A stretch of DNA of 64,000 bases, taken from NCBI RefSeq assembly GCF_000227465.1, contig NC_016047.1, positions 697,001-761,000 of the forward strand, read 5' to 3'. A program made the translations under genes and the position numbers. Within the stretch, counting starts at the first letter, position 1. The number at the start of each line of letters is the position of its first letter. Below, piece after piece: positions 9,866-22,243 of the stretch. The notes beneath the pieces were generated by a model that saw nothing but the letters and a program-made list of their open reading frames with translations, did not search any database and had not been told where the DNA came from. The DNA comes from Bacillus spizizenii TU-B-10 (GTDB taxonomy: Bacteria; Bacillota; Bacilli; Bacillales; Bacillaceae).

Positions 9866-12037
9866 ATGTCTAGAATGTTATATAAATTAGGAGGATGGGT
9901 TGCTCGCAATCGCATAAAAGTAATATGTGCGTGGATCGTTGTGTTAGTTGCTTCGGTAGGCCTTGCAATCACGTTAAAACCAAGTTTTTCTGAGGATATG
10001 TCCATACCTGACACACCTTCGGAAAAAGCGATGGATATCATTCAAAAAGAATTTCCTCACGGTCCTGATAAAGGGAGCATACGGGTGATTTTCGGAGCTG
10101 AAGATGGAGAGAAACTTACTGCAGAGTCAGCCAAAAAAGCAATCGAAAATACGTTCAAGGAAATCAATAAAGATGATTCTGTTGACTCGATTGCAAGTCC
10201 TTTTGTTACAGGAACAATCGCGAAAGATGGCACCGTTGCCTATGCTGATATCAAGTATAAATCTTCAGCAGATGATATAAAAGATTACTCTATCAAACAC
10301 TTAAAAGACAGTTTGAAATTGGCTGATGACGAGGGATTACAAACTGAGCTAAGCGGAGATGTACCAGGAGCCGAGATGGAGATAGGTGGAGTGTCTGAAA
10401 TTGTCGGCATTATTTTGGCCTTTGTCGTTTTAGCCATTACATTCGGCTCCTTATTAATAGCAGGTTTGCCGATTTTAACTGCACTGATTGGATTAGGTGT
10501 AAGTATTGGACTTGTTTTGATTGGGACACAAGTATTTGATATTGCTTCCGTTAGTCTTTCATTAGCCGGAATGATTGGCCTTGCTGTTGGGATTGATTAT
10601 GCTTTATTTATTTTTACGAAGCACCGCCAGTTTTTAGGCGAAGGTATACAAAAAAATGAATCAATCGCGAGAGCTACAGGAACAGCTGCGAGTGCAGTTG
10701 TTTTTGCCGGACTTACTGTTATCGTCGCACTTTGCGGATTGACTGTCGTTGACATTCCTTTTATGTCTGCAATGGGGCTGACAGCAGGGCTTAGTGTATT
10801 GTTAGCTGTCCTCGCTTCAATCACGCTTGTGCCTGCCGTCTTGTCGATAGCGGGGAAACGGATGGTTCCGAAATCAAACAAGAAAAAAGAAAAACAAAGC
10901 GCTGAAACAAATGTCTGGGGACGCTTTGTCACAAAAAATCCTATCATGCTAAGTGTATGCAGCATTCTCATTTTGCTTGTTATTAGTATCCCATCTATGC
11001 ATTTGGAGCTGGGCTTGCCTGATGCAGGGATGAAAGCGAAGGATAATCCAGATCGTCGGGCTTATGACTTGCTTGCCGACGGTTTTGGAGAAGGATTTAA
11101 TGGTCAATTAACAATCGTAGCGGATGCCACAAGTGTAACAGAAAATAAGGCGGAAGCCTTCGCAGATGCAGTGAAAGAAATAAAGGAACTAGACCATGTA
11201 GCGAGTGTCACGCCTGCAATGCCTAATAAAGAAGGGAACTTTGCCATCATTACGGTAGTTCCTACAACAGGTCCAAATGATGCAGCAACGAAGGATTTGG
11301 TAAAGGATGTACGCAGCTTATCAGATAAAAATAGGGTAGATTTGCTCGTTACTGGATCGACTGCAGTGAATATTGATATTTCAGATCGCCTTAATGATGC
11401 GATACCGGTGTTTGCTGTACTCATTGTTGGTTTTGCGTTTGTATTGCTGACAATCGTATTCCGTTCGTTGCTTGTGCCTCTTGTTGCTGTTGCGGGTTTC
11501 ATATTGACGATGACAGCCACTCTTGGAATCTGTGTATTTGTTTTACAAGACGGGAATCTCATCGACTTTTTCAAAATACCTGAAAAAGGGCCGATACTCG
11601 CGTTCTTGCCGATTTTATCTATTGGGATACTGTTTGGATTAGCCATGGATTATCAAGTATTCCTTGTAAGCAGAATGCGTGAAGAATATGTGAAAACAAA
11701 GAATCCAGTACAAGCGATTCAAGCTGGATTAAAACACAGCGGTCCTGTTGTCACCGCAGCCGGCCTGATCATGATATTCGTTTTTGCTGGATTTATCTTT
11801 GCTGGTGAAGCTTCTATTAAAGCCAACGGATTGGCTCTTTCCTTTGGTGTGCTCTTTGATGCATTTATTGTACGAATGACACTGATTCCAAGTGTCATGA
11901 AGCTGATGGGGAATGCAGCCTGGTATTTGCCAAAATGGCTAGACAAGATTATTCCGAATGTGGACATAGAAGGGCATCAACTCACGAAGGAAATACAGCC
12001 AGAAATAGATCATGAACAAAAGAAACAAATCATGTAA
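9866..12037 (+). CDS. ydfJ: MMPL/RND-family membrane transporter YdfJ
   Basis: A 723-residue polytopic protein of the MMPL (RND superfamily) type. It has two repeats of one helix, a large outside loop and five or six helices, with GLAVGIDYALFIFTKHRQ in the first half and FGLAMDYQVFLVSRMREEY in the second, the conserved D-Y pairs of MMPL pumps. It probably exports lipids or a drug-like compound; the substrate is not known. Expression is driven by YdfHI through the tandem 12-mers upstream. The ATG at 9866 has AAAGGAG nine bases before it. Confidence 0.92.
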   Translation: MSRMLYKLGGWVARNRIKVICAWIVVLVASVGLAITLKPSFSEDMSIPDTPSEKAMDIIQKEFPHGPDKGSIRVIFGAEDGEKLTAESAKKAIENTFKEINKDDSVDSIASPFVTGTIAKDGTVAYADIKYKSSADDIKDYSIKHLKDSLKLADDEGLQTELSGDVPGAEMEIGGVSEIVGIILAFVVLAITFGSLLIAGLPILTALIGLGVSIGLVLIGTQVFDIASVSLSLAGMIGLAVGIDYALFIFTKHRQFLGEGIQKNESIARATGTAASAVVFAGLTVIVALCGLTVVDIPFMSAMGLTAGLSVLLAVLASITLVPAVLSIAGKRMVPKSNKKKEKQSAETNVWGRFVTKNPIMLSVCSILILLVISIPSMHLELGLPDAGMKAKDNPDRRAYDLLADGFGEGFNGQLTIVADATSVTENKAEAFADAVKEIKELDHVASVTPAMPNKEGNFAIITVVPTTGPNDAATKDLVKDVRSLSDKNRVDLLVTGSTAVNIDISDRLNDAIPVFAVLIVGFAFVLLTIVFRSLLVPLVAVAGFILTMTATLGICVFVLQDGNLIDFFKIPEKGPILAFLPILSIGILFGLAMDYQVFLVSRMREEYVKTKNPVQAIQAGLKHSGPVVTAAGLIMIFVFAGFIFAGEASIKANGLALSFGVLFDAFIVRMTLIPSVMKLMGNAAWYLPKWLDKIIPNVDIEGHQLTKEIQPEIDHEQKKQIM

Positions 12038-12041
12038 TAGA

Positions 12042-12073
12042 AAAAGCAGATCTTTTATGATCTGCTTTTTTTG
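12042..12073 (+). terminator. Terminator of ydfJ
   Basis: An 11-bp stem, AAAAGCAGATC / GATCTGCTTTT, with a 6-base loop is followed by T residues. Confidence 0.85.
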
Positions 12074-12141
12074 CTTAACATTTATTCCCTGATCATGCTG
12101 TAGGCGATTTTATAGCCTTTCAATGTGGTAGTATTTAGAAG

Positions 12142-12519
12142 ATGAAGCCGGCAGTTAAAAAGATGTTCAGATATTTTAAAAACAACAATTATTCAATTTT
12201 TATAGCGAGTAATGGCTTAATAGAGTATCAAAAAGCAATTGCGAGTTTTTATCAATGGACAGGTGGGTAAATGAAACATTTAGTATTCAACAAATACATA
12301 TTCTTAATAAAAGTGATTTCGTTAATACTATTCTGCAAAAATACGTCATTCAACATGCAGCAGTTGTCGGAGACCGTCTATCTGACATATAAATGCGGCT
12401 AAAGATAATGGTTTGCTGGCAATCGGATGCCATTTTGATTTTGCAAAGGAAGAGGCCCAAGCTGACTTTGTCATACATGATTAATTGAGCTGGAAACATT
12501 ATTGCCTGAGCTGAAATAG
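12142..12519 (+). pseudogene. Decayed HAD-superfamily phosphatase
   Basis: Pieces of a HAD hydrolase appear in successive frames: FKNNNYSIFIASNGLIEY (motif II region), then WVNETFSIQQI..LNKSDFV, then HAAVVGDRLSDI (motif IV GDRxxDI), then AAKDNGLLAIGCHFDFAKEEAQADFVIHD, then LIELETLLPELK. At least three frameshifts separate them. The N-terminal catalytic DxD half is not visible. It resembles phosphoglycolate phosphatase-like proteins. It lies in a decayed patch together with an azlC remnant. Confidence 0.75.
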
Positions 12520-12600
12520 AGGATGCTAAGCGATAAGGCACCAGTGAATTTGCTGGTTTTGGAAAATAATCATTTATAGCCATTCATAGGGATTACAAAC

Positions 12601-12630
12601 AAACATACCAAACGGTTTGATATGTTTTTG
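12601..12630. terminator. Terminator-like hairpin after the HAD remnant
   Basis: AAACATACCAAA / TTTGATATGTTT pairs with one mismatch around a 3-base loop. The following bases (TTGGG) are only weakly U-rich. The rest of 12520-12840 shows no gene. Confidence 0.45.
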
Positions 12631-12843
12631 GGTTACAGCATTCATTTTAATAACTAATTACACTTACCGGTCCAAACTAGCCTAGATAATGTTATTCTTA
12701 ACTATCTAATGATTCTGTTGAAGAAAGCATAACACTCATATATGGTTCTCTATTTTAATATACAAAGAATCATTGTCATCCTTACAATGATCTTGTTTTT
12801 TGTATGGATTTTGTATGGTACATTAAATATGTTGCTCAAAGGT

Positions 12844-13104
12844 GTGAATCAAAAAGGAGATCAAAAATGGGCTGTATTTCGTTCGGCCTTCCGATATACG
12901 ATTCCGATTTAGGCAGGATTTTTATTTTTGGGGATTGCTTATGGAATCTTTATGCATTACTTAGGAATTCATGCAATCTATCCGAGCATCATGAGTTTCA
13001 TCATTTTTACGGGATCAATGGAGTTTGTAGCCGCTCATTTTTTGCGAGGCGGTTTTGCAGAATTAAAGCTTGGGAGTCTAATTCATATGGTTCATGCACA
13101 TGAA
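12844..13104 (+). pseudogene. azlC remnant (branched-chain amino acid export subunit)
   Basis: From a GTG at 12844 the frame reads KWAVFRSAFRYTIPI, a stop, then AGFLFLGIAYGIFMHYLGIH and MSFIIFTGSMEFVAAHFLRGG, the well-conserved N-terminal half of AzlC. The in-frame TAG stands where Met is usual (IMAGF). Homology fades after HMVHA, where the family has MVNARH, and no C-terminal half was found. A related BrnQ carrier follows at 13421, recalling the azlBCD-brnQ operon, so this seems to be the ruin of such an operon. Confidence 0.75.
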
Positions 13105-13420
13105 AAAAATCCTGTCTCGGCGACAATCCAGTTTTTTAACCGGCTAAACCAGTTGATCAGAACATCGCCCATGCGACAGAGATCAAACGCAGCAATCGCC
13201 CTGGATTCTATTGAATCGACATCTTACATGGCCAAAGTGAGATAACAGCCATGGATGCAATGTCTAATCGAAAGGATTATTATGTTATTTGAACTTGATA
13301 AAAATATGTAAGACTGACACAAGCTTATTATTTTAGAATCAACGCCGTGCCAATGCAAATAGCAGCTGCAATGTTTGCTGGTCATTTAAAAAAGTATTTA
13401 CGGTAATCGGAGGATTTATC
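13105..13420. other. Non-coding or decayed stretch before brnQ
   Basis: No intact gene is visible. A short frame ending AAAMFAGHLKKYLR at about 13330-13405 could be the tail of a lost gene. The ribosome site for the BrnQ gene (CGGAGG) is at 13407-13412. Confidence 0.4.
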
Positions 13421-14743
13421 ATGTCAAAGAAAGTTTCTTCTTCCTATATCATCATTATAGGATTAATGCTATTTGCATTGTTTTTTGGAGCAGGAAATCT
13501 CATTTTCCCGCCTATGCTTGGTCAAATGGCTGGAACAAATGTATGGATCGCCAATGCTGGCTTCTTAGTGACAGGAGTTGGCTTGCCATTGCTGGCAATG
13601 ACAGCATTTGTTTTTTCAGGTAAACATAATCTACAATCGTTAGCCAGCCGTGTGCATCCAGTGTTTGGAATTGTGTTTACGACGATTCTCTATCTGGCAA
13701 TCGGGCCTTTTTTCGCAATCCCGAGATCCGGGAACGTATCGTTTGAAATTGGAGTAAAACCTTTTTTATCAGATGATGCAGGCCCTGTTTCATTGATCAT
13801 ATTTACAATATTATTTTTCACAGTTGCATGTCTGTTATCACTCAACCCTACAAAAATTATTGATGTAGTCGGAAAATTTTTAACGCCAATTAAATTGACA
13901 TTTATCGGATTGCTTGTAGTGGTAGCTGTTGTCCATCCAATCGGAACAATTCAAGCACCATCAAAAGGGTATACATCACATGTGTTTTTTAAAGGCTTTC
14001 AGGAAGGGTACCTGACTCTGGATGCCCTTGTAGCGTTTGTTTTTGGAATCATCATCGTGAATGCAATTAAAGAACAAGGTGCTGCCACCAAAAAACAGCT
14101 GGTGATCATTTGTGCAAAAGCAACTGCGATTGCTGCGACACTCCTAGCCCTTATCTATACGGCCCTTTCATATATGGGAGCCTCCAGCGTTGAAAAGCTG
14201 GGGCTTTTAGAAAATGGAGCCGAGGTTTTGGCTAAGGTTTCATCCTATTATTTTGGATCCTATGGTTCCATCATATTGGGCTTAATGATTACAGTAGCAT
14301 GTCTGACAACAAGTGTCGGACTGATCACAGCGTGCTCTTCCTTTTTTCATGAATTATTTCCGAACATTTCGTATAAAAAAATAGCTGTAATGTTAGCAGT
14401 GTTTAGTACGCTTGTCTCAAATATAGGGTTAACTCAGCTCATTAAGGTGTCCATGCCTGTCTTAATGACGATGTATCCAATCGCGATTTCCTTAATCTTT
14501 TTAACGTTTTTGCATTCTGTATTTAAAGGGAAGGCTGAAGTGTATCAGGGCAGTTTACTGTTCACGTTTATCATTAGCCTATTTGACGGTTTGAATGAAG
14601 CTGGGATAAAAATTGAAGTCGTAAATCGCATTTTCACTCAGATTCTTCCTATGTACAGCATAGGGCTGGGATGGCTCATTCCAGCTATTATAGGGGGAAT
14701 AGGCGGCTATATACTGAGTATGTTTCGAACAAAAAGATCATGA
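13421..14743 (+). CDS. BrnQ-family branched-chain amino acid carrier
   Basis: A 440-residue polytopic protein with about twelve helices and the LIVCS family signature LFALFFGAGNLIFPPMLGQMAG near the start, plus GPFFAIPRSGNVSFEIG. Members import Leu, Ile and Val using a sodium or proton gradient. It is similar along its length to B. subtilis BrnQ but sits in a different neighbourhood from the azl-brnQ locus, so it is probably a paralogue. The azlC ruin just upstream suggests an old azl-type operon of which only this gene survives. The ATG has CGGAGG eight bases before it. Confidence 0.88.
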   Translation: MSKKVSSSYIIIIGLMLFALFFGAGNLIFPPMLGQMAGTNVWIANAGFLVTGVGLPLLAMTAFVFSGKHNLQSLASRVHPVFGIVFTTILYLAIGPFFAIPRSGNVSFEIGVKPFLSDDAGPVSLIIFTILFFTVACLLSLNPTKIIDVVGKFLTPIKLTFIGLLVVVAVVHPIGTIQAPSKGYTSHVFFKGFQEGYLTLDALVAFVFGIIIVNAIKEQGAATKKQLVIICAKATAIAATLLALIYTALSYMGASSVEKLGLLENGAEVLAKVSSYYFGSYGSIILGLMITVACLTTSVGLITACSSFFHELFPNISYKKIAVMLAVFSTLVSNIGLTQLIKVSMPVLMTMYPIAISLIFLTFLHSVFKGKAEVYQGSLLFTFIISLFDGLNEAGIKIEVVNRIFTQILPMYSIGLGWLIPAIIGGIGGYILSMFRTKRS

Positions 14744-14850
14744 TAAGCGCATTTATAAAACGAATAAAGGATTAATAGCGCTACTCATCTTCATAAATAT
14801 TTTGATTTCCCTGGTCAGGGTACTAAAGAGTTGAACAATTACTCAGATCT

Positions 14851-14880
14851 GCAGGTGGAATAAAGCTCTTGTCCGCCTGC
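14851..14880 (+). promoter_or_regulatory. Hairpin in the leader of the Rok-like gene
   Basis: GCAGGTGGA / TCCGCCTGC forms a 9-bp stem (one G-T pair) about 20 bases before the Rok-like start. It may be a terminator of the upstream gene or a leader structure. It covers the alternative TTG start at 14869. Confidence 0.4.
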
Positions 14881-14898
14881 TTAATTGGGGGGAAGAAG

Positions 14899-15342
14899 AT
14901 GGCTGATCAAAGAGAAGCTTTGTGTATGAGATTAGCAGAAATAGATAAACATGAAATATCGATACTTCGTGAGTTCCAGTTAGAACGGGAGAAGATCTTT
15001 TCAAGCTTAAGAGCATTAGAACGGTCTAGTAAAGAAAAGAAGCTCCCATCTCAAGTCGCGCTCGAACAAACAGCAAATGATGTAAAGACATATCGTGTAA
15101 CATCAAAACCAATCCAACAGAAAAAAAGAAGACAGGGCAGAGCTGAATCAAAAGCCTCTCGTGAAGCAGCATTACACATATTAAAGCAGCAGGATAAGCC
15201 AATGAGCAGTATTGAGCTGAAAAGAAAGATTGAAAAGGAAACCGGTGTGCACATCTCTAATATGACATCATTTATGAATACTTTAATGAAAATGCACCCA
15301 GAGGTGAAAAAACCTTATAGAGGACAATATAGAATGATTTAA
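14899..15342 (+). CDS. Rok-like nucleoid-associated repressor (short Rok paralogue)
   Basis: A 147-residue protein clearly related to B. subtilis Rok (about 190 aa). The N-terminal part, EALCMRLAEIDKHEISILREFQLEREKIFSSLRALE, matches the Rok coiled coil that mediates oligomerisation. A basic linker (KKRRQGRAESKASREAA) follows, then the C-terminal winged helix SSIELKRKIEKETGVHISNM..PEVKKPYRGQY, where Rok has nearly the same PEVKKPYRGQY. Rok silences AT-rich foreign DNA and comK. The linker is shorter than in Rok, as in the sRok proteins of Bacillus plasmids. An in-frame TTG at 14869 sits in a hairpin; the ATG at 14899 follows a G-rich ribosome site. It could be a xenogeneic silencer or a Rok antagonist. 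Confidence 0.85.
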   Translation: MADQREALCMRLAEIDKHEISILREFQLEREKIFSSLRALERSSKEKKLPSQVALEQTANDVKTYRVTSKPIQQKKRRQGRAESKASREAALHILKQQDKPMSSIELKRKIEKETGVHISNMTSFMNTLMKMHPEVKKPYRGQYRMI

Positions 15343-15474
15343 TTCTTGCGTGGTATTCGGTTTCTGATTTCCAAAGGCTGAGCTTCATATTGTCTGATGC
15401 ATAACAAGGTATCCTTGCTATTACGAATGTAGAACGGGGACTAAGGTAGTGGCAGGGAATGTCATTTTCACATG

Positions 15475-15510
15475 ATACCAAGGGTTGTGAATACCTTGGT
15501 ATTTTTTTTG
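15475..15510 (+). terminator. Strong terminator downstream of the Rok-like gene
   Basis: ATACCAAGG / CCTTGGTAT with a 10-base loop and a run of eight T. It lies 130 bases after the Rok-like stop, giving that mRNA a long 3' end. From 15511 to 15758 no gene is evident. Confidence 0.8.
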
Positions 15511-15758
15511 TGCGTGTGTTGTGAAGTGAGCTGAGCTGCTGTCCGAAAACTGCCGCCTAGTCATTAGGGTTGGTTCATGTAGAAAAATAGAGCCCGATTA
15601 GAGAGACTTTATTATTGGAAAATATCCATACGGATACAATTCACTTCCTTATGAACCACTCACCATCTGTTTCACTGATAAAACATGGCGGCATTAGTGA
15701 ATTCCGCTTTACTATCTGGAACACCCCCTTCCTTGAAGCCTGTGTTTGAAGCTCGACA

Positions 15759-16448
15759 CTAAAAACGCAATCCAAATACATGAATCACGTAAATGACAAT
15801 AGGCGGGATCAACAGGGACGGGAGCAGATTCAGCGTTTTAAACTTCTTAATTCCCAGAATGCTTAACCCTGAGCTGAGGATGAGTATGCCTCCTACAATT
15901 GTGATTTCGTTGATAAGGTCTGTATTGATTGCGCTCTCCATTACTTTAGCAAATAAATAGATGGAGCCCTGCCAGACAAATAATACAATGGCAGCCGCTG
16001 CGATTCCAAAACCAAAAGTCGAAGCAAGCACAATGGAGGTAATGCCATCTAACATCCCGTTTGTCAGGAGATACGTATAATTTTTATTTAGAGCCGCTTC
16101 AACAGGGCCCAATATTGACAGAGAACCTATACAAAATAATAAGATCGCAGTTGATAAACCCTCCGCTAAATTGCTTTTAGAGAATTTATTCACCAGCTTG
16201 TTGAATCGTAATTCCAGATTGATGCTTTGGCCAAGCAAACCTCCAAGGGCCAAACTCACGATAAAAAGAATGGGGTATTTACTATCAGGCAAATGCTGTG
16301 TAATCGCGTTGATCCCCAGCGCGACTGCAGCGAATCCCATTGCCTGCATCAGGATATCCTGGTATTCATCTTTAATGCCTTTTTTGAATAACCCGCCAAT
16401 TATACTTCCTGCAATGATCATCACTGTGTTAAAAATGGTCCCAAACAT
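15759..16448 (-). CDS. ydfK: DUF554 membrane protein YdfK
   Basis: A 229-residue membrane protein of the DUF554 family with about seven hydrophobic helices, starting MFGTIFNTVMIIAGSIIGGL and containing QAMGFAAVALGINAI and GMLDGITSIVLASTFGFG. The function is not known; the fold suggests a transporter. The ATG at 16448 has GGAGGAG eight bases upstream; an in-frame upstream extension has no ribosome site. It follows the MerR regulator ydfL in the same direction, 90 bp away, and could share its promoter. Confidence 0.82.
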   Translation of the reverse strand: MFGTIFNTVMIIAGSIIGGLFKKGIKDEYQDILMQAMGFAAVALGINAITQHLPDSKYPILFIVSLALGGLLGQSINLELRFNKLVNKFSKSNLAEGLSTAILLFCIGSLSILGPVEAALNKNYTYLLTNGMLDGITSIVLASTFGFGIAAAAIVLFVWQGSIYLFAKVMESAINTDLINEITIVGGILILSSGLSILGIKKFKTLNLLPSLLIPPIVIYVIHVFGLRF

Positions 16449-16539
16449 AAGCTTTCTCCTCCAATAATGATTCCTGCATAAAAAATAAACCCTCAAGTTA
16501 GTAGAGAGTCAAGGGAGATTAAAAACATATTCATGAAAT

Positions 16540-17352
16540 TTATTTGATGGGCAGCAGGATTTCAGTCACATAATTGTCTAGATTATTTGTAATCCCATAA
16601 TCAATGAGTGTGATTTCGATTGAGTCTCCCGCTATCTCATAATGATGTTCGTTCATATATGCCAGTAACTGTTTGTAATATGGTTCGGCTTCTGGATGTG
16701 ACCCTTTAAACCTGATTTGCAGATAGTCTCTTGGAGGAAAAATGATTTCGGATGAAGTTTCTTCATTTTCATCTTCAAGAATCATGAATATGCTGGAATA
16801 TTTGTCGAACTGATTTGCTATTACATTTGCTGCTGAAATAGATAAACCGATCTTGCCTATAAATATATCCTCGTTCACATTCAGATGAGTTCTCAATTTG
16901 GCTAATGAATGTTCGATATCATGGCCGAGAATATACTCATGCTGTAAATAAGCCACACGTAATGCGGGAAGTTTGATTTTTGTAATGTGATGTAACGGCG
17001 TGTGGACGGCATCTTCTATTTGCATGATGCGGCGGGAGATCTTTTTTTCTATGCGTTCCAATTCTCTTTTTTTGCGATCAATTTCAGTTTGCTGGCTTTT
17101 CAGTAAATGAATCAGAGTGTTTGTATTTTGAGAATTATAAAAATCAAGAAGTTTATTGATTGGCAGGCCTAAAGCTCTCAAATACTTGATGGTATCCAAC
17201 CGCTCGAACTGTTGGGTAGAATAAAATCTATAGTTCGTATGCTCGTCTTTATATTCCGGTTTCAAAAGACCAATTTCATCATAGTACCTAAGCGCAGAGA
17301 CTTTCACATTGAATAGCTTTGAAACTTCTCCAATCGAAAAAAATTCCTTCAT
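16540..17352 (-). CDS. ydfL: MerR-family regulator with GyrI-like effector domain, YdfL
   Basis: A 270-residue regulator. The N-terminal MerR helix-turn-helix ([30 protein letters not shown]) is followed by a dimerising coiled coil (about 75-115). A C-terminal domain of about 150 residues resembles the BmrR/GyrI ligand-binding fold, which binds hydrophobic cations. The start is taken as the ATG at 17352, preceded by GAAAGG; an ATG at 17373 has no ribosome site. A perfect 10-bp palindrome lies about 55 bp upstream. Probable targets are its own gene and ydfK. Confidence 0.85.
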
Positions 17353-17406
17353 TTTAACAACCTTTCTGTTCATATGATTTATACATTCACATTATATAGT
17401 AAGGCG

Positions 17407-17436
17407 CGATAATGTCCGAACAAATTGACATTATCG
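17407..17436 (-). promoter_or_regulatory. Palindromic operator upstream of ydfL
   Basis: CGATAATGTC and GACATTATCG are exact inverted repeats with a 10-base spacer. A TATAAT -10 for the minus strand lies at about 17395, so the palindrome overlaps the -35 and spacer zone, the normal place for a MerR operator. Confidence 0.65.
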
Positions 17437-17471
17437 AGGATAAAAAACATTTTTGAACAAACGGCATAAAG

Positions 17472-17500
17472 AAAAAGCTCCTTTTAAAAAGGAGCTTTTT
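17472..17500 (-). terminator. Terminator of ydfM
   Basis: A 13-bp stem, AAAAAGCTCCTTT / AAAGGAGCTTTTT, directly after the ydfM stop. Confidence 0.8.
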
Positions 17501-21874: not shown

Positions 21875-22243
21875 ATGAAGAGCAAAGATGTTAAGAAAGA
21901 AGGGCATCATCGTGGGGATCGTCACAGGGGCAGAGGCGGTTCACAGCATCATGGACCAAAAACTTTTCGCCGCGGCAGGGCCATTGCCTTTTTAGAGATG
22001 ATGCATTTGAAGCGCGCGACTATTAAGCAGCAGTTAGAACAGCCGGAATTCCAATCTATCCAGCAAATGCTTGTCGGCGAATTAAAAGCCATTGATATGG
22101 TGATCAACGAATTTATCCAGTTATTTGAAATACATGAAAGTGAAGCAAAGGATGTATCCGGAAAAGGTGAAGATACAGAGGCATCTTCAGAAAATGGAGA
22201 GAAAGGAAAGGAACCGAATGAAACAAATGAACAGTTATATTGA
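21875..22243 (+). CDS. Conserved small charged protein upstream of an O-methyltransferase
   Basis: A 122-residue soluble protein. The first 35 residues are rich in His, Arg, Lys and Gly (HHRGDRHRGRGGSQHHGP). The middle, RRGRAIAFLEMMHLKRATIKQQLEQPEFQSIQQMLVGELKAIDMVINEFIQLFEIHE, is a predicted long helix, and the tail is acidic. I do not know the function; the helix could mediate protein contact. Its end overlaps the start of the broken O-methyltransferase, so they were one operon. Ribosome site GGAAAGGGG precedes the ATG. Confidence 0.7.
   Translation: MKSKDVKKEGHHRGDRHRGRGGSQHHGPKTFRRGRAIAFLEMMHLKRATIKQQLEQPEFQSIQQMLVGELKAIDMVINEFIQLFEIHESEAKDVSGKGEDTEASSENGEKGKEPNETNEQLY

Follow-up and report, generated by a model that had tools for sequence, protein, structure and literature searches.

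Why should a Bacillus genome that already carries a normal rok gene hold a second, shorter member of the same family? The question is raised by the open reading frame at 14899..15342 (+) of the 64,000-nucleotide stretch of Bacillus spizizenii TU-B-10 DNA analysed here (the window), which a sequence-only reading had described as encoding a 147-aa chromosomal paralogue of the xenogeneic silencer Rok. The frame and its translation agreed with ours (ATG start, stop included). A longer ORF of the same frame opens at TTG 14869, but this start was dropped since the codon is not conserved: at the sister locus of a second genome (G005) the position reads TTA and the alignment shows a one-base gap ahead of the ATG, making ATG 14899 the likelier start. 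A profile search placed the protein in the Rok family, with a match to Pfam WH_Rok (PF23159; E=1.4e-25, 89.6 bits against a cut-off of 27.6), and a PDB sequence search returned the Rok DNA-binding domain of known structure (5zuz/5zux, E about 2e-18), while NCBIfam gave no match up to E 1. The same two structures were the top fold matches (E 2.3e-4 and 1.7e-3) of a single-sequence AlphaFold model, a monomer with mean pLDDT 74 and pTM 0.38. The window genome (G000, a single contig of 4,207,222 bases) has, in addition, a gene for a 194-aa Rok near 1,597,160 (G000:1597160), so that the description as a short chromosomal paralogue holds; the single rok ascribed to B. subtilis 168 was likewise borne out by a single WH_Rok match in G035, which we take to be that genome. 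The short Rok-family gene is real and probably functional.

Three parts were distinguished in the protein. The N-terminal helix region (residues 1–43; 14899..15027, +), placed by Rok similarity and the model and presumed to be a dimerisation coiled coil, overlaps a helix predicted at residues 2–46 (block pLDDT 83–94 over residues 1–40 of the single-sequence model). The first 44 residues were identical to the same-genome Rok at 19/44 positions and similar at 36/44, in keeping with the earlier statement that the Rok coiled coil is retained. The winged-helix part (residues 82–147, Pfam match 88–144; 15142..15339, +; Pfam and alignment) was identical to the same-genome Rok at 34/61 positions, and its end is near-identical as described, PEVKKPYRGQY being identical in Rok. 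N121, T123, K131, K138 and R141 align with Rok N154, T156, K164, K171 and R174; the minor-groove residues invariant in Rok (N154, K171, R174) and the highly conserved T156 are thus all kept, including the counterparts of the base-contacting N154, T156 and R174. One of the three auxiliary lysines of Rok is kept, K116, K136 and K164 being E, S and K here. The accessible text of Duan et al. (PMC6212790) gives N154, K171 and R174 as invariant, T156 as highly conserved and K116/K136/K164 as less conserved, and because of the latter these three lysines do not define family membership. By this layout the N-terminal helix would serve dimerisation and the winged helix would bind the minor groove of AT-rich DNA.

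Between these parts lies a short basic linker (residues 44–81; 15028..15141, +; from the alignment) that ends in KKRRQGR, its KKRR kept near the position of the DNA-contacting RRRRG of Rok. The linker has 38 aa and a net charge of +8, against 69 aa and +4 in Rok and 19 aa and +2 in pLS20 sRok, so that it is indeed shortened as in plasmid sRok, although the protein belongs to a clade separate from the pLS20-type sRok. The charges of N-terminus, linker and winged-helix part (-1/+8/+6, against 0/+4/0 in the same-genome Rok, where the last figure includes the acidic tail) speak for an alternative in which the protein is a silencer in its own right, a homodimer acting on AT-rich DNA in parallel to Rok whose basic linker confers salt-responsive, H-NS-like bridging or filaments; H-NS-type proteins are described as combining a negative N-terminus with a basic linker (PMC6936261, accessible part), and pLS20 sRok bridges DNA alone in a salt-sensitive manner (PMC9757077). 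According to the accessible part of the latter paper, however, no filaments were seen after deletion of Rok's neutral linker, and its authors concluded that the linker fails to explain the weak response of Rok; together with the presence in the same genome of a Rok whose dimer helix is similar, this leaves an independent silencer distinctly improbable in our judgement. A natural relative with a linker both short and basic would allow linker length to be separated from linker charge, for salt response as well as for mixing with Rok.

The reading that we prefer, and to which we give about an even chance, is that of a functional short-linker Rok-family nucleoid protein acting as an sRok-like partner and modulator of the resident Rok. 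It is built on the WH_Rok match, the kept contacts and the canonical Rok in the genome, and on the selection and the G005-like leader considered below. Its precedent is pLS20 sRok, which, in the accessible part of Erkelens et al. (PMC9757077), co-purifies with Rok and forms heteromers, and which at 20% reduces the bridging by Rok to roughly what sRok achieves by itself; the gene sets affected differed between Rok, sRok and the two combined, and physico-chemical conditions hardly influence Rok on its own, partner proteins being the proposed modulators. Mixing is plausible by analogy, because the dimer helix of the window protein is about as Rok-like (19/44) as that of pLS20 sRok, which pulled down with Rok and whose first 44 residues are identical to the same-genome Rok at 20/44 positions and similar at 35/44 (winged helix, 24/61 identical). 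We infer that the short Rok, if expressed and bound to DNA, would form heteromers with the resident 194-aa Rok and alter its bridging and silencing as pLS20 sRok does, and could shift Rok targets, perhaps comK or bacteriocin genes among them, in one direction or the other.

The core of this idea is not new, since chromosomal short Rok genes and Rok:sRok heteromers are both in print. The survey in PMC9757077, as far as accessible, lists a chromosomal srok beside rok in B. licheniformis, B. sonorensis and B. subtilis subsp. spizizenii at non-conserved locations, separates sRok from Rok by length alone (189 aa or less) and leaves open whether chromosomal sRok transcription suffices to matter. The published subsp. 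spizizenii gene is probably the window gene or its strain equivalent. At 147 aa the window protein is an sRok by this rule, which is crude, a 186-aa protein of G008 falling in the long-Rok clade. The window gene resembles the chromosomal sRok of those three taxa as a short Rok-family gene beside rok, but the short copies defined there by length divide here into several groups, with the azl-linked one (see below) apart from the other short copies in G006, G010, G012, G017 and G030, the joins between groups being weakly placed.

Where the protein belongs was examined in a tree of 31 rows, in line with the earlier suggestion of a comparison with Rok and plasmid sRok. It paired with the G005 protein (99/98) and stood outside the pLS20 sRok group, which paired with G003 (100/100); the long Rok proteins and two plasmid copies made up a third group (98/99). 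By sequence it thus represents a small lineage of its own that belongs to neither the long-Rok clade nor that of pLS20 sRok. The AU test retained the window protein joined to the long-Rok clade (p 0.47), and a looser grouping of the window pair with the pLS20 pair received 47/35 only. The protein does not appear to be an orthologue of chromosomal Rok, the long-linker clade (98/99) being formed without it, its linker having 38 aa and the genome encoding a separate Rok. With B. subtilis Rok it shares the N-terminal helix, the WH_Rok winged helix and the same contact residues (59% identity over residues 76–145), whereas the linker of Rok runs to 69 aa and includes a neutral Q-rich stretch, and Rok belongs to its own clade and is nearly invariant between G000 and G005; the window protein has neither the Q stretch nor equivalents of K116 and K136. 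With pLS20 sRok (RokLS20) it shares a short linker, the replacement of K116 by E and of K136 by S, and a similar match of the dimer helix to Rok, but pLS20 sRok is plasmid-borne, has a 19-aa, weakly charged linker and is 40% identical. An origin in the pLS20 sRok lineage is unsupported at this identity and with separate clades; the best identity among 54 plasmid records was 45%. A phage origin was dropped, as no match was found at E 0.01 in 50,697 phage records and none was confirmed in viral contigs.

A Rok-family match was present in all 44 Bacillus genomes (one genome per species), but among the other Bacillus genomes of these 44 an intact close relative was found only in G005 (71–72% identical), where it ends an intact azlC-azlD-brnQ operon about 46 kb from that genome's ydfJ. 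Broken copies lie directly behind azlC-azlD in G028 and G037, adjoining a sigma-70-region-4 ORF; the former groups with the window and G005 proteins in the tree (97/96) and the latter was assigned by its best tblastn match (47% to the G005 protein, 32% to Rok). The lineage therefore counts four copies in 44 genomes, two intact (G000, G005) and two decayed, and each of the four directly follows azlC/azlD or brnQ. Three different surroundings are represented; G028 and G037 share theirs and so are not independent. A link of Rok genes to azl was not found in print by a literature search that covered few subscription journals; this link and the small lineage of its own are among what the analysis adds. 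Such consistent placement would fit a regulator local to its operon, with the short Rok mainly controlling its own azlCD-brnQ. Yet when all ten azlC loci (one in each of 10 genomes with a match at E 1e-20) were examined, a Rok gene was found at four and not within the 9–16 kb examined in G007, G010, G017, G022, G027 and G035; azlB (G028, G037) or a GntR/aminotransferase-type regulator (G005) at the Rok-bearing loci could do the job; azlCD is largely gone from the window while the short Rok gene is intact; and WACTA, the preferred motif of Rok, was not enriched around the gene (5 in 3,099 bases, 10.2 expected). We regard a mainly local control as quite unlikely.

In the window, brnQ, a branched-chain amino-acid transporter gene, is intact (13421..14743, +; Pfam PF05525, E=1.1e-165; NCBIfam livcs), and the brnQ-srok gene order is common to the window and G005. 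Upstream lie a truncated azlC (12844..13101, +; tblastn, one stop) and a remnant of a HAD-hydrolase gene that in relatives is found between ydfJ and ydfK (12148..12516, +; tblastn, broken frames). No tblastn match to azlD was obtained in the window at E 0.01, and blastn showed that the window jumps from the start of azlC to a region past azlD of the G005 operon (L033:7430 to L033:8434). The HAD and azlC remnants, brnQ and the short Rok gene all lie between homologues of what we take to be ydfJ and ydfK. This site is variable: it spans about 60 bp only in G011 and G033, and holds an alpha/beta hydrolase in G035, a HAD gene in G005, a HAD gene, an acetyltransferase-like ORF and an alpha/beta hydrolase in G038, and a metal-transporting ATPase with a HAD remnant in G036 (Pfam for the G038 HAD gene, an intact copy matching HAD_2, the G038 hydrolase and the G036 ATPase, the others by similarity or eye; the G039 and G009 stretches by blastn comparison only). 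The neighbours had been called decayed and foreign-looking. Decayed they are, and GC is low (0.366 over 12700–13420 and 0.372 in the short Rok gene, against 0.417 in the window), but 'foreign-looking' fits only in part: by sequence similarity both are Bacillus genes, one of them from an operon for branched-chain amino-acid transport and the other from a HAD gene that belongs to this site. The short Rok gene would have arrived with an azlCD-brnQ operon placed between ydfJ and ydfK, or been inherited as its last gene. In passing, the ydfJ-like genes of G040 and G026 each contain one internal TAA, and azlC of G022 contains five stops.

How the gene might be expressed was considered from its flanks. 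The leader (14840..14898, +; alignment and fold) has a G-rich ribosome-binding region, resembles that of G005 and contains a hairpin at about 14851–14880. The hairpin noticed earlier is convincing in the window alone (z -2.68, 3/200 shuffles as good), the similar G005 sequence folding weakly (z -1.29, 19/200). Searched against 44 genomes, the 99 bases ahead of the gene gave no matches beyond G005 except over 28 bases in G008 (E 0.001), at a place some 16 kb from the brnQ of that genome. Rfam assigned the leader to no known RNA family, the only match up to E 0.1 in 12000–17500 being one below the cut-off at 17420–17498 (RefA9, 31.4 bits against 49), probably by chance. No promoter just upstream of the short Rok gene was listed by a consensus scan, and the spacing from brnQ is short (about 90 bp in G005, 155 bp in the window), for which reasons we take transcription running on from brnQ to be the most probable origin of its expression. 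A CodY box linking the gene to amino-acid supply was also sought; the only match to the consensus in the window, with up to 3 mismatches, lies far off at 22182, and the candidate was rejected. Downstream, the 3' end of about 130 nt noted before closes in a terminator-like hairpin with a T run (15474..15508, +; z -3.87, 0/200 shuffles as good) that was unlisted by the consensus scan. This hairpin was apparently part of the insertion site, an equivalent sequence being found in G005 behind the HAD gene that adjoins ydfK. Hairpins of a closely similar type (ATACCAAGGG...CCTTGGTAT) occur at 15475 and 33704 of the window, at L033:5110, 10816 and 18600 and at L058:3123; T runs mostly follow them, they flank the G005 azl module on both sides, and they might act as common terminators or offer short stretches of homology for recombination.

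Between the window and G005 the short Rok gene gave dN 0.157, dS 0.547 and dN/dS 0.29 (bootstrap 0.18–0.48), against dN/dS of 0.12 for brnQ, 0.07 for ydfJ, 0.07 for ydfK and 0.012 for rok, which points to purifying but relaxed selection on a gene that is kept and fast-evolving. The high dS was dropped as proof of recent transfer, the value for srok (0.55, 0.36–0.83) overlapping that for ydfK (0.46, 0.34–0.62). Evolution so much faster than that of Rok, the decay of the adjoining azlCD and the broken copies in G028 and G037 would also fit a passenger that moved with the transport operon, now does little and is heading for loss. We think this unlikely: the ORF is intact in both G000 and G005, dN/dS is clearly below 1, the N, T, K and R contacts are kept and the leader is similar in G005. 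Against our preferred reading, that of a partner and modulator of Rok, we count the selection relaxed relative to Rok, the decay of two of the four copies and the change of K116 and K136 to E and S, as well as the lack of a promoter listed just upstream, the unenriched WACTA and the low pTM (0.38) of the monomer model.

The origin of the short linker was viewed against the breadth of the family. In accessible part, one review treats sRok as a derivative that arose by internal truncation (PMC11841835), another proposes transfer from pLS20 to chromosomes (PMC6936261), and a third found Rok homologues to be absent from an island database and gives Bacillus as the sole genus possessing Rok (PMC7074111), while Duan et al. 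list a few homologues from other genera (PMC6212790). Of 80 genomes of the family, 53 contained WH_Rok; of 14 named controls, B. subtilis alone did. A two-row profile detected Rok-family genes in 61/397 sampled genomes of the order, spread over 16/135 genera, and the genus of the window accounted for 11 of the 61. Twenty rows from profile-positive genomes outside that genus were fetched, and length was taken from the ORF start to the NMT motif. This distance was 150–159 residues in 11 long Rok rows and 103–138 in the others, apart from G168 (154), pBS72 (147) and G078 (179), each with an upstream ORF extension, G291 (143), two plasmid copies inside the long-Rok clade (147–148) and low values in G028, namely 70 for a short copy where the search matched another place and 66 for the decayed fragment; no NMT motif was found in G079 or in a group of 125–132 aa. 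Short linkers thus predominate in the sampled rows, which makes the long Q-linker probably the derived form, in trees that are unrooted. Such breadth of short-linker Rok genes argues against sRok as a truncated Rok. Placement in an amino-acid transport operon would, given co-expression, tie nutrient transport to silencing. A bolder proposal, in which a silencer lineage dedicated to azlCD(-brnQ) as its last gene links transport to local or Rok-wide silencing, with short-linker Rok ancestral and the long Q-linker derived, we hold to be doubtful.

Several other Rok-family genes were encountered. A contig of 65,122 bp (G304:C1), from one of the 20 rows fetched outside the genus, carries an sRok identical to that of pLS20; by equal size it was matched to plasmid NZ_CP041370.1 (65,122 bp), which is assigned to Paenalkalicoccus suaedae, outside Bacillus, and reflects either real transfer or sample mixing. 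On the B. licheniformis plasmid pSCDB14 (L062:1339-3867) a short rok gene stands behind genes annotated as an LXG-type polymorphic toxin and its immunity protein. A second WH_Rok gene (frames of 125–141 aa) lies 4.8–5.8 kb from rok in 26/44 Bacillus genomes, for example at L102:495-893 (-) and L098:455-832 (-) with equivalents in other genomes; in the two that were aligned, R and S replace N154 and T156, which are given as invariant and highly conserved, respectively, in Rok, so that their DNA binding may differ.
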